Below, piece after piece: positions 851-63,884 of a DNA stretch of 64,000 nt. The DNA comes from Gammaproteobacteria bacterium. GTDB taxonomy: Bacteria; Pseudomonadota; Gammaproteobacteria; GRL18. Each line of letters opens with the position of its first letter. Within the stretch, counting starts at the first letter, position 1. The translations under genes were made by a program, and so were the position numbers. Under the pieces are notes generated by a model that had not been told where the DNA came from, ran no database searches, and worked only from the letters and a program-made list of their open reading frames with translations. Location: assembly GCA_027012135.1 (NCBI GenBank), contig JALUZF010000162.1:1-64000 (forward strand), in the 5' to 3' direction.

Positions 851-927
851 GCATTAACACGGACTGCCTAAAGCCGCATAGCAAAGCAGCGCGGCTTTGG
901 GCATCCGATTATGCAGTGGTTATGTGC
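851..927 (+). repeat. attC-like recombination site
   Basis: The site starts with GCATTAACAC and ends with GTTATGTGC. Between them an imperfect hairpin pairs GCCTAAAGCCGC with GCGCGGCTTTGGGC. Placement directly after a stop codon and before the next ORF fits an integron attC. The terminal core GTTATGT departs from the GTTRRRY consensus, so this is a moderate call. Confidence 0.5.
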
Positions 928-1291: not shown

Positions 1292-1352
1292 TCCTAAAAA
1301 GTGGACATCAAGTCCTTGAAGATATAAGGTTAAAAAAATAGCCAGAACGGGC

Positions 1353-1420
1353 CAATAACACAATAGGCTGCGACAGTAGTATTGGTAATAATGTGTAAGC
1401 GGTTGAATATACTGTTATGC
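1353..1420 (+). repeat. attC-like site, degenerate
   Basis: The site starts CAATAACACAATAGG and ends ACTGTTATGC. The outer arms pair partly (ATAACA...ATA against the reverse complement of TATACTGTTAT). Placement between two cassette-type ORFs supports it; the weak inner hairpin does not. Confidence 0.4.
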
Positions 1421-2338: not shown

Positions 2339-2410
2339 GCATAACAATACGCTCGTTCGGACGCAAACTACGCTGCGCTTCATTTGCGCCGCACAGCTTG
2401 GTCGTTAGGC
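2339..2410 (+). repeat. attC site (well formed)
   Basis: The left core GCATAAC and right core GTTAGGC fit the integron RYYYAAC/GTTRRRY pattern, the right one perfectly. The inner arms pair GGACGCAAA with TTTGCGCC around an ACTACGCTGCGCTTCA loop. It starts four bases after a stop codon, the standard position for a cassette attC. Confidence 0.85.
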
Positions 2411-3922: not shown

Positions 3923-3983
3923 GTCCAACAGACATATATACGTAATGCTGCGCACAACGCATAAATGCTGAGATGTTATATGC
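3923..3983 (+). repeat. attC-like site, degenerate
   Basis: The left core GTCCAAC fits RYYYAAC exactly and the right end GTTATATGC equals the right end of the attC at 63331-63402. The inner arms (ATGCTGCG against CGCAT) pair poorly. Located directly before a cassette-type ORF. Confidence 0.4.
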
Positions 3984-5582: not shown

Positions 5583-6221
5583 TTAATCAGGTACAGCATC
5601 TTTCAGTGATTTAAAGAAATTTTCAGGCGGGAAGGAGTCCAGAATTACTTCCACAGCCTTATTGATTAATTTACGGTTTTCATCTTCGCTCTTGTCCCGT
5701 TCAATACTGGTTGGTACTGAACCGCGCCAGATCAGACGGTTACCCTCAGAGGATACCAGATCAATAATAAATGTACCGGCAGAAAATTTATGGTCAGTAT
5801 TGGCAATACCTTTGCCGCTGCCGTATTCGTCATCCCAGGCCAGCCCCAGGTTATAGCTGTACAGTTCATTAAGCTGACCGACCTTGATACCTTCATCGCC
5901 GACAAAATAATAATTAACCCAGAAATCGGGCAGGATATGGCGTTCCTTGCGGATTTTTTTGGCAGCCATGGTATTTTCAATGGCCAGTGTGGCGCCGACA
6001 CTTTGAATAAAACGGTAATCAGGATTATTTTTAACGGTATCCGGAGCGGGGTTAAAATTGTATTTTTGCATCGCCTCAAAATTCTGGGCATAATCATACT
6101 TGATACGGGCACCTAACAGGCTGCTGACCGTTGTTACAGAGGAAGAGCAGGCAGTAAGCAATAGGCTCAGCAGCAGGCCAGTAATAAGTTTGTTTTTTTT
6201 GTATAAAGTATGAAAAAGCAT
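5583..6221 (-). CDS. DUF4136-like outer-membrane lipoprotein
   Basis: A 212-residue lipoprotein: basic N-terminus (YKKNKL), hydrophobic stretch, then the lipobox LLTAC with the lipidated cysteine at about residue 25. The mature part has the DUF4136 outline: YDYAQNFEAMQKYNF near the start, then a beta-rich domain ending with GTFIIDLVSSEGNRLIWRG. It would sit in the periplasm attached to a membrane. No enzyme activity is known for the family. It is a single gene on the minus strand facing away from the YpfJ gene; its 3' end faces the cassette array. Confidence 0.8.
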   Translation of the reverse strand: MLFHTLYKKNKLITGLLLSLLLTACSSSVTTVSSLLGARIKYDYAQNFEAMQKYNFNPAPDTVKNNPDYRFIQSVGATLAIENTMAAKKIRKERHILPDFWVNYYFVGDEGIKVGQLNELYSYNLGLAWDDEYGSGKGIANTDHKFSAGTFIIDLVSSEGNRLIWRGSVPTSIERDKSEDENRKLINKAVEVILDSFPPENFFKSLKDAVPD

Positions 6222-58910: not shown

Positions 58911-60071
58911 ATGGAAAAACAAATGGCCCAACAGGCAGCTAATAATCCGCAACAGGAGCAGGAAACCGGTGGAACAGAACAGGCAAAGTCAGGCTCAGGT
59001 GCAGCAACGGCTTTTATTTTTCTGGCCGTGGTGATTTCACTGGCCGCCGCCGGTATTACTTTTTTACTGTCTCAAAAGCTGGAACAGGTGCGTGCAGAAG
59101 TCAGTCAGCAGCAGGAAAATATCCGCAATAATCTGTCTCAAATCAGTACTAAAGTCAGTGGTGATATGCAGGCCCGCCTGATGAACCTGACGGATAAAAT
59201 GGCCAGGGTCAGCTCAGATCAACAGCAGTTTCAGGCACAGGTATCCCAGCAGCAGAAAGTAACAGAAGCCCTGTCTAAAAAACTGGAAGTCAGCAATCAG
59301 CAGATGCTGCAGTCCATTGAGGTACTGTTTAAACAGAAAGGCCGGGAACGCATTGGCTGGGTACTGGAAGAAGTCGAGTATTTATTACTGGTGGCCAACC
59401 ATAGCCTGAAACTGCAGCATGATGTCGCTACAGCTATAGCGGCGCTGGAAGCCGCCGATGCTCGTCTACTGGATACCGGCGATCCGGGTAGCATTGAAAC
59501 CAGAACTCAGATCCGTGATGAAATCCAGACCCTTAAAGCCCTGCAGCAGCCGGATATTGTCGGTATGTCGGCCAGTCTGGCCAGTATTATCAAAGCGGTA
59601 CCGCAACTGCCCATTAAATATGCTCAGATTGACAGTAAAAAGAAAGTGGCTGATCTGGTGGAGAAAAAAGCCGCTGAAGACAAAGTGACTGTGGAACAGG
59701 CCAGTAAGGCCTTTTTAAAAGAACTGCGCAGCCTGGTGGTATTTCGCAAGCTGGATGAAAAACCCAAACCCCTGATGACCCCTAAAGAACAGTTCTTTTT
59801 ACAGCAGAATCTGCAGCTAAAACTGGAAACGGCCCGCAGAGCCTTATTAATGGGACAGCAGAATCTGTTCAGTGACAGTTTGCAGGAAACGGTTCAATGG
59901 CTACAGGACTATTTTGATACGGAGGTGCCCAGAGTCAGTCAGACTATAAATGAGTTGAGCAAACTGCAGAAAATGCATATTACCAGTACCATGCCGGATA
60001 TATCGCGCTCGATCAAGCTGTTGCGCAGTTATCAGAAAGAACTTGAAAAACAGCAAGAGGGCAAATCATGA
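58911..60071 (+). CDS. hemX: HemX-like membrane protein
   Basis: A 386-residue protein: disordered Q-rich N-terminus (1-28), one membrane helix (32-52), a coiled coil (55-135) and a helical periplasmic domain (140-375) with GWVLEEVEYLLLVANHSLKL. This is the HemX arrangement; despite the name it is not a proven methyltransferase here. The stop overlaps the hemY start by four bases. Confidence 0.9.
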   Translation: MEKQMAQQAANNPQQEQETGGTEQAKSGSGAATAFIFLAVVISLAAAGITFLLSQKLEQVRAEVSQQQENIRNNLSQISTKVSGDMQARLMNLTDKMARVSSDQQQFQAQVSQQQKVTEALSKKLEVSNQQMLQSIEVLFKQKGRERIGWVLEEVEYLLLVANHSLKLQHDVATAIAALEAADARLLDTGDPGSIETRTQIRDEIQTLKALQQPDIVGMSASLASIIKAVPQLPIKYAQIDSKKKVADLVEKKAAEDKVTVEQASKAFLKELRSLVVFRKLDEKPKPLMTPKEQFFLQQNLQLKLETARRALLMGQQNLFSDSLQETVQWLQDYFDTEVPRVSQTINELSKLQKMHITSTMPDISRSIKLLRSYQKELEKQQEGKS

Positions 60072-61315
60072 TCAGACTGCTGTTTTATGCTTTGCTGTTT
60101 CTCATTGCGGCCGCCTATATTGCCTTACTGGCTAAAGAAGATCCGGGCTACGCCCTGCTGAGCCGGGGTGACTGGAGTGTGGAAGGCACCCTGGTCTTTT
60201 TAATCAGTGTTCTGACCGCAATTATTGCGGCCATTTTACTGCTGGTTTATCTGCTGGTTAAAACCATCAAGTTTCCCGGCAAGGTATCCAGCTGGGCGCA
60301 TAACCGTAATACTATAAAGGCTATCCAGAACTGCAACCGCGGCTATATAGAACTGGCCGAAGGCAACTGGCGGGAAGCAGAAAAGCACCTGCGTAAAAGC
60401 GCCAACCGCAGCGGTATGCCCATTTTAAATTACCTGGCCGCCGCCCGGGCAGCACAGGAAGAAGGTGAGCAGCGCCGGCGTGATAATTACCTGCTGCAGG
60501 CGCACAAAAGCGATCCCAGCGCTGATATTGCCATTGGCCTGACCCAGGCCGAACTGCAGATAAAAGACGGTCAGCCCGAACAGGCGCTGGCCACTTTAAT
60601 GCACCTGAGAACCGTGGTGCCAAAACATAAGCAGATGTTAAAAATGCTGTTTTCTGTTTACCAGCAGCTAAATAGCTGGAAGGATCTGGAAGAGCTCCTG
60701 CCGGAACTGAAAAAGAACCATATTTTTGAACCCCATCTGATCAACAAGTTTGAAAAATCCCTTATTCAGCAGCTGATGAAGCAGGCACTGCAGGAAAAAA
60801 ATCTGGGTGAACTAAAAGCACTATGGAAACGTCTGCCCAAACAGACCCAGAATGAACCGGACATGATTTATTTCTACTGCCAGTTATTGCTGTCCGTCGG
60901 CGAGGAAGAAGAAGCCATTGAGCTGATCAAGGAAGGCATCAAACATCACTGGTATGCACCGCTGATATTGCTTTATGGTCAGGCCAGAGAAAAAGACGTT
61001 GCCAAACAACTGGAAACCGCCGAATCCTGGCTCAGTGATAACGGCCGCAGTGCCGAACTGCTGCTGACCCTGGGCCGTTTAAGCATTTATAACCAGCTAT
61101 GGGGCAAGGCCAGAGACTACCTGCTCGAAAGCATTAAAGTATCCCCCAGCACAGAAGCCTACCAGGTACTGGGCGAACTCTATGAACAACAACTCGATGA
61201 TTCCGTCGAAGCCATGAACTGCTATCGAGAAGGCCTGCTGCTCAGTTCAAACTGTCGTGAAGTTTCCCGACTGAAAGATAATTCAGGCGTTAGAGAAGCA
61301 CTGCCGTATAATTAG
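60068..61315 (+). CDS. hemY: HemY-type TPR membrane protein
   Basis: A 415-residue protein with two membrane helices (residues 4-24 and 39-64) and a C-terminal TPR domain (about 90-400). The segment KEDPGYALLSRGDWSVEGTL is the HemY_N domain and NRGYIELAEGNWREAEKHL a TPR start. It acts with HemX near the membrane; the exact role is debated. Last backbone gene before the right-hand cassette array. Confidence 0.92.
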   Translation: MIRLLFYALLFLIAAAYIALLAKEDPGYALLSRGDWSVEGTLVFLISVLTAIIAAILLLVYLLVKTIKFPGKVSSWAHNRNTIKAIQNCNRGYIELAEGNWREAEKHLRKSANRSGMPILNYLAAARAAQEEGEQRRRDNYLLQAHKSDPSADIAIGLTQAELQIKDGQPEQALATLMHLRTVVPKHKQMLKMLFSVYQQLNSWKDLEELLPELKKNHIFEPHLINKFEKSLIQQLMKQALQEKNLGELKALWKRLPKQTQNEPDMIYFYCQLLLSVGEEEEAIELIKEGIKHHWYAPLILLYGQAREKDVAKQLETAESWLSDNGRSAELLLTLGRLSIYNQLWGKARDYLLESIKVSPSTEAYQVLGELYEQQLDDSVEAMNCYREGLLLSSNCREVSRLKDNSGVREALPYN

Positions 61316-61440
61316 TGTGTATCTATTTATTGATGCATGCATTACCATAAATTATGGCTGTTTTATTATAGAAATGGAGAAAGCCGGAATCGTTATATCT
61401 CAATATTTAAGATTCTGGATATTAAACCTGTTATGTTTAG

Positions 61441-61637
61441 TAAAACATGGAAATAGCAATACTAATAGAAACAGGGTTTTCAACTGCTGATACTGAATAT
61501 CCTGAAATATCAAATAGAAGGTGATGTAATACTTCGGTATATGAATTGGCAAGAAAAAGATATTGAGGTTTTCTATGCTGATCCTATCGCCTTTAAATGG
61601 CAAACATTGTCACTTAACTATACTGTCAAAACATAAC
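61441..61637 (+). pseudogene. Broken small ORF in the first right-hand cassette
   Basis: Two overlapping frames hold protein-like text: one from ATG 61446-type start reading MEIAILIETGFSTADTE, and a second reading NILKYQIEGDVILRYMNWQE followed by DIEVFYADPIAFKWQ, with its stop in the left core of the attC. A single shift near 61490 would join them. I do not recognise the product. Region 61316-61440 holds nothing I can name. Confidence 0.35.
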
Positions 61638-61705
61638 AAGCGGATCAACATGGACTGGCAATTCCGCTGGGCTTCATTGCCAGCCAGTTACCCTTGTCGT
61701 TGGGC
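61631..61705 (+). repeat. attC site (well formed), right array
   Basis: Left core ACATAAC, right core GTTGGGC (perfect GTTRRRY). Inner arms CTGGCAAT and ATTGCCAG pair perfectly around TCCGCTGGGCTTC. The next ORF begins eight bases later. Confidence 0.88.
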
Positions 61706-61713
61706 TATAGAAA

Positions 61714-62241
61714 ATGAACCGAAAAATTACTGAAATATTTCATTCTGGTGAACTTGAAGCCCAGACATTGTATAACAAGAAAACTGAATGGTCAGATCGT
61801 TCTGTTTCTGCAGTTAATCATTTGTACAGGGAAACCATTGATGAAGATAAGGCTTTTTTTATTGAGGGAAGAGATTTCTTTTTTATTTCAACATCTGACA
61901 ATGATGGAAATTGTGATTGTAGTTTTAAGGGAACAGAAGAAAATTTTGAGGGTAAGCAACAACCTGCGGTTATAGTAATAGATCATAAAACACTTATTTT
62001 TCCTGATTACAGCGGAAACAAAATGTATAATTCACTAGGAAACTTATTAATTAATCCAAAAATAGGAATGCTGTTTATTGATTTCCCTTCAGCATTACGT
62101 TTGCGAGTTAATGGTCATGCTGAGATTTTAAATGATCTTGATAGTTATAAAGAACAATGGTCAACAGCAAAAAGATTTGTAAAAATAACAGTAAATCAAG
62201 TTTTCTGGAACTGTAAAAAAAGAATACCAAAGTCCGTATGA
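61714..62241 (+). CDS. Pyridoxamine 5'-phosphate oxidase-like flavin-binding protein
   Basis: A 175-residue protein of the PNPOx-like split-barrel fold. FFFISTSDNDGNCDCSFKGT, then VIVIDHKTLIFPDYSGNKMY and SLGNLLINPKIGMLFIDFPS form the family's FMN pocket pattern. It is a cassette gene behind a good attC. The C-terminus KRIPKSV may be altered relative to the usual NCPKYI. The substrate is unknown. Confidence 0.82.
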   Translation: MNRKITEIFHSGELEAQTLYNKKTEWSDRSVSAVNHLYRETIDEDKAFFIEGRDFFFISTSDNDGNCDCSFKGTEENFEGKQQPAVIVIDHKTLIFPDYSGNKMYNSLGNLLINPKIGMLFIDFPSALRLRVNGHAEILNDLDSYKEQWSTAKRFVKITVNQVFWNCKKRIPKSV

Positions 62242-62259
62242 GGTTAACCTCAATAGTTA

Positions 62260-62382
62260 GCCCAACAAGAATTTGAATTGGATTAATTGGTCTATGCGAC
62301 TTTTTAAAAAGTATTGAGTGTTGGTCAAGGTCATCATATTTTAACAGCGTCTTTCCTTGACCAAGAGCTCAATTAAATGGGC
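62260..62382 (+). repeat. attC-like structure with an inner hairpin
   Basis: Left core GCCCAAC is the exact complement of the right core of the previous attC. The right end reads AATGGGC instead of GTTGGGC. An inner hairpin pairs TTGGTCAAGG (62321) with CCTTGACCAA (62355). Degenerate or recombined site. Confidence 0.4.
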
Positions 62383-62694
62383 ATTATGGATTTTCTTACA
62401 TTTAAAAGTTTTATTAGCACCGAGGCATTAATAGTTTTTTATTACCTTGGAGCACTTATACTGCCTATCTGTATCTGGCTTTTGCTTACCTGGCTTACAC
62501 AAAAATATGAATTGCTCAATAGTGCATATAAAGGTGGTAAGGAAATAATATGGAAATCATTAGATAGAAAGCAGAAAACAAAACTAATAATATTTTTTGT
62601 AATAGCGTTTCTGTTTATGGAGCTATTTTGGAGAATGTTATTTGAATTTTTAATTGCTTACATGCAAATGCGGGATGCATTATTGCAGATTTGA
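62377..62694 (+). CDS. Small two-helix membrane protein
   Basis: A 105-residue cassette protein with helices at about residues 19-41 and 68-88, basic loop KGGKEIIWKSLDRKQKTK between them. No family recognised. The ATG lies in the right end of the preceding attC-like structure; a second ATG three codons on is equally possible. Confidence 0.55.
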   Translation: MGIMDFLTFKSFISTEALIVFYYLGALILPICIWLLLTWLTQKYELLNSAYKGGKEIIWKSLDRKQKTKLIIFFVIAFLFMELFWRMLFEFLIAYMQMRDALLQI

Positions 62695-62703
62695 CTATGA
62701 ATG

Positions 62704-62768
62704 CACTAACCAATCATTCAACCAGATTGGCACAAAATCACAACTACTGGTTTACTCAAATGTTTAGA
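62704..62768 (+). repeat. attC-like site, degenerate
   Basis: Left core CACTAAC, right core GTTTAGA, inner arms AACCAG (62720) and CTGGTT (62747). Size 65 bp and placement between two small ORFs fit an attC; both cores depart from consensus. Confidence 0.4.
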
Positions 62769-62784
62769 ATAAAGAAAAATAGAG

Positions 62785-63198
62785 ATGCGAAAAATTATTT
62801 TAATTATCACCGTTCTTATGGTTGGATGGTACGGAAATTTACTTTATAAACAAAATGGTTTTTCGTTTATGCATAGTTCGGTAACTGTTTCTGATTTAGA
62901 AGAACAAGTAAAATGTATAACAAAAGATGGTAATGTTATATATGGAAGCATACCAAAAGGAACTGTATGTGAGAAATTTGAACCGATTAAAGGTTCACTA
63001 ACAGTAGTTCCAGGTACAACCTATAAAAATAATAAATCAAAAAATCATGTAACATCAAGATTTAAATGTGATGGAAGGCAATATTGTAGCCAAATGAGTT
63101 CCAGAGCAGAGGCTGTGTTTTTTATAAGGAATTGTCCAAATACAAAGATGGATGGTGATTTTGATGGGGTGCCATGTGAAAATGATTCTCGCTTTTAA
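62785..63198 (+). CDS. Excalibur-domain exported protein
   Basis: A 137-residue protein with an N-terminal helix or signal (residues 3-20). The C-terminus reads FKCDGRQYCSQMSSRAEAVF and NCPNTKMDGDFDGVPCEN, an excalibur calcium-binding motif DxDxDGxxCE with paired cysteines. Related proteins have CAEA where this one has RAEA, so one cysteine is lost. Cell-envelope or nuclease-type partners are possible; the role is unknown. Confidence 0.75.
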   Translation: MRKIILIITVLMVGWYGNLLYKQNGFSFMHSSVTVSDLEEQVKCITKDGNVIYGSIPKGTVCEKFEPIKGSLTVVPGTTYKNNKSKNHVTSRFKCDGRQYCSQMSSRAEAVFFIRNCPNTKMDGDFDGVPCENDSRF

Positions 63199-63330
63199 TC
63201 TAATAAAGGATTTAAGTTAGAGATTAAAAATTTAACCAACAACAAATTATCAAATTATTGGCCAGCCATAAAATAAAAGTCAGAATATAAATTATTATTA
63301 AAATAATTATCCTTATTTTGAAGTTCTGTT

Positions 63331-63402
63331 TATAACAAAAAGTAATAAATTGAGGCTGTCCTGTAATACTCTACTCGGACAACCAAAAGCAGTGTTATAT
63401 GC
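63331..63402 (+). repeat. attC site, right array
   Basis: Left core TATAACA, right end GTTATATGC. Inner arms GGCTGTCC and GGACAACC pair with one mismatch. The cassette with the Cass2-like gene begins 27 bases later. The 63199-63330 stretch before it is AT-rich without an ORF. Confidence 0.65.
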
Positions 63403-63428: not shown

Positions 63429-63884
63429 ATGAGAATTGAAGATGTTGATGAAAAGCAGATATATGGAATATCGGTAAGAACAACTAATACAAACGAAATG
63501 AATCCTGAAACGGCTAAAATAGGAAAAACATGGCAAAAATTTTTCAGTGAAGTTTCTGTTAATTATCAAGGTGGTGAAAAGGTCTATGGTGTTTATTATA
63601 ACTATGAGTCTGATGCTAATGGTGAATTTAATGTACTGGCAGGAATAGAAAAAGCTAATAATTCTCTTGAGAAAGTTTTTATCCAGAAAGGAAGGTATTT
63701 AGTTTTTGAGGGAAAAGCAGCATCGCCTGATGATAAAGTGCGAGTGCAAGCAGTAATAGAAACTTGGGGGAAAGTATGGGATTACTTTAGTAACGAAAAA
63801 TCAGAGCATAAAAGAGCCTACAAAACAGATTTTGAGCACTACAAAAATCAAACTGAAATAGATATATATATTTCTATTTTATAA
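63429..63884 (+). CDS. Cass2/GyrI-like effector-binding protein
   Basis: A 151-residue protein of the GyrI/AraC-effector-binding fold. IGKTWQKFFSEVSV, then YGVYYNYESDANGEFNVLAG and FIQKGRYLVFEGKA follow the pattern of Cass2, a cationic-drug-binding protein first described from integron cassettes. It is the single gene of its cassette. Drug binding is by family resemblance only. GGAGAAACT gives its ribosome site. Confidence 0.75.
   Translation: MRIEDVDEKQIYGISVRTTNTNEMNPETAKIGKTWQKFFSEVSVNYQGGEKVYGVYYNYESDANGEFNVLAGIEKANNSLEKVFIQKGRYLVFEGKAASPDDKVRVQAVIETWGKVWDYFSNEKSEHKRAYKTDFEHYKNQTEIDIYISIL

Follow-up and report, generated by a model that had tools for sequence, protein, structure and literature searches.

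Array 2, the integron-type cassette array near the right end of the window (the whole 64,000-nucleotide stretch of DNA analysed here), is best explained as a cluster of attC sites lacking an integron integrase (CALIN; PMC9024848) and headed by a solitary attI-like site, which we call attI-A. We give a probability of roughly 0.7 to the reading in which attI-A is a docking site of the IntI-A family, its cassettes were joined at G^TT, and the genome has at least seven such pads, this one included. These pads are attI-A at hemY and on contig C74, and a second element, attI-2, in array 1 and on contigs C283, C90, C46 and C221. Since C283 and the left end of the window's contig probably belong to one array, the seven pads correspond to no more than six separate loci. 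Five things are observed directly: the insertion itself, attC sites, attI-like elements that recur, a G^TT boundary that these elements share, and remnants of intI next to two copies of attI-A. From sequence, we infer that attI-A and attI-2 would work as attI, recombining with attC under IntI.

Sample and methods

Contig C162 is 128,628 bases long, and the window covers its first 64 kb; the contig comes from a draft assembly of 3.9 Mb in 325 contigs, with an estimated contamination of 4.6%. Positions above 64,000 are contig C162 coordinates, just beyond the window. The named relatives (G001, G003, G004, G005, G009, G013, G014 and G057) are unclassified Gammaproteobacteria metagenome assemblies, and at least G001, G003 and G005 belong to the same genus as our genome. 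The attC scan covered the whole contig on both strands and took AAC...GTT pairs that can be closed as a single hairpin, using DNA energies and a threshold of -9 kcal/mol. This constrained fold was chosen because the loops of natural attC sites vary, which makes them unsuited to MAFFT alignment or a covariance model. Integron integrases were searched with TIGR02249 at the family cut-off of 265 bits, and cargo was identified by Pfam matches.

Both arrays are inserted between convergent genes

Array 2 is a clean 6.8-kb insertion between the convergent hemY and flavoreductase genes.

60068 to 61315, plus strand: hemY-like backbone gene to the left of array 2; adjoins the reductase gene in L075, L084 and L076-L083
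Contig C162 68136-69143, minus strand: flavoreductase gene, right flank of array 2, convergent with hemY

The two genes are convergent neighbours in G001, G005 and the same-family genomes whose contigs span both, and the gap between them in relatives is about 50-200 bp. In G003, the gap is filled by 1.7 kb of other cargo. The hemY-site contig of G004 continues into a toxin-antitoxin pair between two direct copies of a 23-bp repeat, and that of G057 (L087) continues into hamA and hamB, the genes of a Hachiman defence system. At 396-3555 of L087, both genes lie directly behind attI-A and are followed by an attC-like hairpin, so that a whole defence system apparently occupies the first-cassette position.

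Array 1 lies between cls and a DUF4136 gene.

5583 to 6221, minus strand: DUF4136 gene (Pfam PF13590), right backbone flank of array 1; adjoins convergent cls in G001 C166 and G005 C445

These genes are convergent and adjacent in G001 and G005, and a 1.3-kb insert separates them in G004, within which pieces of cls are duplicated (L217 1554-2460, G004 C136). In our genome, cls lies on contig C283, next to 2.5 kb of array; this contig and the left end of C162 are probably parts of one cls-DUF4136 array.

The original prediction proposed that cassettes are inserted at several chromosomal places, and this is borne out: both arrays are inserted between genes that neighbour each other in relatives, and further attI or attC loci occur on contigs C46, C74, C90 and C221. 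Relatives carry the backbone pair either uninterrupted or with other cargo, and no integron-free relative with the same genes at this place was found. The prediction had also offered a large rearrangement that split one array in two. The two arrays do lie on one contig, 56 kb apart; however, neither is at a synteny break, each sits between genes that are directly neighbouring in relatives, and their attI-like sites belong to different families. Since insertion between convergent neighbours accounts for both arrays, no rearrangement is needed, and a split array is hardly credible.

attC sites and cargo

At the threshold, the scan gave six hits in the 12.3 kb of arrays versus one in the 116 kb of backbone in the 128.6-kb contig. 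The six array hits represent five distinct sites, as 61631-61705 scored on both strands. The attC sites and related hairpins are as follows.

852 to 925, plus strand: attC of array 1, the top scan hit of the contig (-14.5 kcal/mol)
2339 to 2410, plus strand: attC of array 1, from the attC scan
3923 to 3981, probably minus strand: attC of array 1, 93% identical to C18 14644-14702 of our genome and 88% to G001 C177
5417 to 5478, plus strand: attC of array 1, from the attC scan (fold z -2.0)
61631 to 61705, plus strand: attC of array 2, confirmed; R' box GTTGGGC, imperfect hairpin carrying extrahelical bases
About 62262 to 62392, plus strand: possible degenerate long attC, uncertain, with a GCCCAAC-like R'' and ATTATGG, not GTT, at R' (fold z -2.9)
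Contig C162 64482-64542, minus strand: attC of array 2, with a 90% identical copy on C221 of our genome behind an unrelated gene
Contig C162 66503-66567: strong hairpin in array 2, an attC scan hit absent from the original prediction

The attC sites of array 2 are 61631-61705 and contig C162 64482-64542, and array 1 has four or five. The earlier call at 61631-61705, made on its GTTGGGC core, is real: the site was recovered by the scan, and as single-stranded DNA it folds at -14.3 kcal/mol (z -2.6) into a hairpin with extrahelical bases. A second attC had been called at 63331-63402, and this one is unsupported. It fails the scan, its minimum-energy fold is not one hairpin closed by R'' and R', and its central hairpin includes a copy of the 23-bp repeat (63347-63369). 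The claim that the two arrays share one orientation holds in part: 61631-61705 matches most of array 1, but array 2 also contains a minus-strand cassette consisting of a PEP-CTERM gene and the attC at 64482-64542. This attC lies just outside the window and was missed by the original prediction, as was the possible long attC near 62262-62392. Array 2 has few attC sites, in mixed orientation. Related attC sites occur at separate loci, linking array 2 with C221 and array 1 with C18.

The cargo of array 2 within the window is as follows.

61431 to 61705, plus strand: first cassette, between attI-A and the first attC, with no clear gene
61714 to 62241, plus strand: PNPOx_N family gene (Pfam PF01243, 3.7e-13)
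62377 to 62694, plus strand: DUF4282 gene (Pfam PF14110, 6e-12)
62785 to 63198, plus strand: Excalibur-domain gene (Pfam PF05901, 1.2e-8)
63429 to 63884, plus strand: Cass2 / GyrI-like gene (Pfam PF14526, 1.5e-20)

Pfam agrees with the PNPOx-like, excalibur and Cass2-like genes named earlier and adds DUF4282. Array 2 also contains IS remnants. It also holds, at contig C162 64312-64364 (L003 4312-4364), a second copy of the sequence that follows hemY, in the form seen in G004; it looks as though two alleles of this locus had been joined in tandem.

The 23-bp repeat (AAATTATGGCTGTCCTGTAATAC) has nine copies in the two arrays, and the backbone has one weak copy with 6 mismatches. The repeat could be the terminus of an IS or MITE.

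Window 1227, 1261, 3546 (minus strand), 61349 and 63347; contig C162 64005, 64341, 65680 and 65815: copies of the 23-bp repeat
61349 to 61371, plus strand: diverged copy (5 mismatches) just left of attI-A
63347 to 63369, plus strand: copy within 63331-63402, with no attC-type fold
L072 11272 and 11863: direct copies at the G004 hemY site, flanking the toxin-antitoxin pair

attI-A, a 68-bp element at the head of array 2

The element at the left end of array 2 was missed by the original prediction.

61365 to 61432, plus strand: attI-A, a solitary site resembling attI; crossover presumed between G61430 and T61431

A blast search with the left end of array 2 showed a 67-bp segment common to the hemY sites of G003 and G057, to C74 of our genome, where the neighbours are cobD-like and cbiB-like genes, and to G001 C210, where the neighbour is hrpB-like. 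These five copies align over 68 columns with no gaps. A sequence model trained on these five recovers further copies, not used to build it, from other genera (G009 C10, 4.9e-9; G013 C228, 4e-8; G013 C217, 7e-7) and weaker ones in G009 C29 and G014 C131. When the copies are anchored on G^TT, the mean pairwise identity is 0.52 to the left and at most 0.30 to the right past the first two bases; TT follows the boundary in 8 of the 10 copies. The element is neither attC-like in its fold (z -1.0) nor palindromic from end to end.

The surroundings of two copies provide the link to an integrase. Divergent 5' remnants of intI-A adjoin attI-A at G001 C210 (62 residues, 85%) and at C74 of our genome (19 residues, 79%), which places the element beside a divergent intI at both. 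The order there, divergent intI, short spacer, element and cassettes, is the layout of an attI site. The hemY site of array 2 itself has neither an intI gene nor a remnant. The cargo directly behind the hemY attI-A differs between our genome, G003 and G057, though their hemY genes are 96-98% identical. The segments between hemY and attI-A vary in length and content among relatives, and the three hemY copies might therefore be independent events.

attI-2, a 124-bp family with the same boundary

1293 to 1416, plus strand: attI-2, the second solitary site resembling attI, within array 1; crossover presumed after G1414

Copies of attI-2 occur at four further places in our genome (C283, C90, C46 and C221) and in G001, G004 and G005, with a fragment in G013. 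G004 C136 has no more than the final 24 bases, joined to the cls end. The eight copies in the alignment all stop at G^TT, with TT in every one, and then differ: identity is 0.88 to the left of the boundary and falls to 0.36, 0.31 and 0.26 to the right. Sites of the attC type follow attI-2 in matching orientation on C162, C283 (156-213) and C46 (434-509). The first cargo behind the C283 copy, between attI-2 and attC, is a PDC-S15 candidate defence gene (L215 170-1099). No intI remnant was found beside any attI-2 copy, including the five in our genome; the attI identity is therefore drawn from the boundary and the cargo, and we call the element attI-like only. A long attC was considered and rejected, since attI-2 has no end-to-end dyad, folds unlike attC (z +0.1), and carries right-arm changes in G001 and G005 that are uncompensated on the left. 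Neither attI-A nor attI-2 has a match on 72,556 plasmids.

Integron integrases in our genome and its relatives

Array 2 is a CALIN in its own assembly, with no integron integrase gene nearby. No TIGR02249 match above the cut-off was found anywhere in this assembly, nor did a search with IntI-A return one, and no complete integron, with a functional intI next to attI, is present in it. Integron integrases are present in G001, G003, G005 and many genomes of the family. The intact intI-A is on G001 C349 (L088 64-1449), next to groEL; it scores 452 bits with TIGR02249 against the cut-off of 265 and has the IntI-type insert ALSKKYPNAPIEWKWQYVF. This protein also has about 145 extra N-terminal residues, with a weak match to a second SAM-like (core-binding) domain (E 0.023). 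Remnants of intI-A are found on G001 C127, G001 C210 and C74 of our genome. Contigs break at integrons in these assemblies: a mere 63 bp precede intI on G001 C349, and C161 of our genome begins at the end of groEL, beyond which an integron like the intact one of G001 may lie. A gene missing from the assembly is therefore not necessarily missing from the cell.

In different genomes, IntI-A genes are in different places, with the 3' end always facing the 3' end of a convergent gene.

L088 1449-1590, L172 619-743, L093 about 2772, L092 about 1897: IntI-A sites facing convergent genes

The genes faced are groEL, a HugZ-like gene, a cytochrome gene and a thioesterase gene. Separately, IntI-like tyrosine recombinases lie within a few hundred bases of attC at L238 3297-5585 (C221) and L105 13592-14702 (C18) in our genome and at L241 6208-6705 (G001 C177). 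The C18 and C221 genes were not taken as IntI because they score under the IntI cut-off; the C221 gene also lacks the insert typical of IntI, and its partner is an IS91 transposase.

Proposed mechanism and alternative explanations

In the mechanism that we propose, integron platforms would have been inserted repeatedly beside the 3' ends of genes, spreading attI-like elements. intI may then have been lost locally, as at C74 of our genome, G001 C127 and C210, leaving attI and the cassettes, whose integration would have come about by recombination of attC with attI at G^TT. An IntI from another source in the cell could act in trans and refill the remaining attI sites. We propose this last step because the cargo behind the hemY attI-A differs in three close relatives. 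Since our assembly has no integron integrase, trans activity is unproven. In its strongest form, a distributed integron, one trans integrase would maintain many solitary attI pads between convergent genes across the chromosome, each giving a first-cassette position, and defence and toxin-antitoxin cargo would be prominent (Hachiman, the PDC-S15 candidate defence gene and toxin-antitoxin pairs); this form is tentative and, on balance, unlikely. Plain decay would need no trans activity: several complete integrons, or one relocated repeatedly, would have lost intI by deletion and left dead remnants. The intI-A remnants at G001 C127, G001 C210 and C74 speak for it, as do the mixed orientation, IS remnants and weak attC sites of array 2. 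Against it, the cargo right behind the hemY attI-A is different in our genome, G003 and G057 despite nearly identical hemY genes, and five attI-2 copies in one genome show no trace of intI. We give plain decay slightly less than an even chance. The attC relatives shared between loci and the differing hemY cargo fit trans refilling without proving it, and decay explains most of the same facts.

Two further explanations do without attI. IntI could have put single cassettes into ordinary secondary sites (attG), a type of integration that is experimentally established (Loot et al. 2024, as cited in PMC12901181), and the short attI-2 remainder fused to cls in G004 would suit it. However, what precedes G^TT is one of the repeated elements, of 68 or 124 bp, and not unique local sequence; the left flank of the first cassette is a dispersed element. 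The conserved attI-like sites of two repeat families argue that the arrays are not random secondary-site insertions, and the explanation, improbable overall, is already contradicted for the attI-headed loci. Alternatively, the repeated elements could be the ends of a transposable element or MITE that abut the cassettes. The 23-bp array-only repeat and the IS3- and IS91-type sequences would agree with this, as would the left edge of attI-2 (TAAAAAGTGGACATCC), which we take to resemble an IS end. Yet TT follows the boundary in nearly all copies (8 of 8 for attI-2, 8 of 10 for attI-A), attC sites in matching orientation follow at C162, C283 and C46, and attI-A adjoins intI remnants; we see only a small chance that such ends explain the elements. 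We prefer a CALIN headed by a solitary attI-A.

Comparison with known systems

CALINs might be dead remnants, insertions at random secondary sites or outposts that still function. The attI-like sites of two families within the arrays make these readings testable, as sequence alone locates the pads and strains can then be compared for what the pads carry. Should refilling in trans occur, a genome would offer several first-cassette positions, not one. A limited and partial literature search returned no description of dispersed solitary attI families heading integrase-less arrays.

Like the CALINs of PMC9024848, the arrays here have attC sites and cassette-type cargo with no local integrase; CALINs are defined by attC only, whereas these arrays hold attI-like sites that recur at several loci and fall into two families. 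About half of Xanthomonas genomes have CALINs outside the main locus, with seven loci reported, according to the available part of PMC12444791. As here, these are integrase-less arrays at several conserved chromosomal loci off the main integron; that part of the report does not describe attI copies at the CALIN loci, and intI stays at ilvD there, whereas our assembly has no intI. Insertion at attG (Loot et al. 2024, cited in PMC12901181) likewise disperses cassettes over the chromosome outside a complete integron, but attG sites are non-classical and diverse, whereas the left flank here is one of two repeated elements. Compared with a sedentary chromosomal integron, our genome shares a chromosomal attI with cassettes, and a same-genus genome has a family IntI with the IntI-type insert; the differences are that no intI stands beside the site, that there are several sites per genome and that each has few cassettes. 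CALINs at multiple loci are already known, and the comparison suggests that the new part is the dispersed solitary attI-like sites heading array 2 and other loci. These sites suggest one integron system for which the genome has held several docking points instead of a single one.
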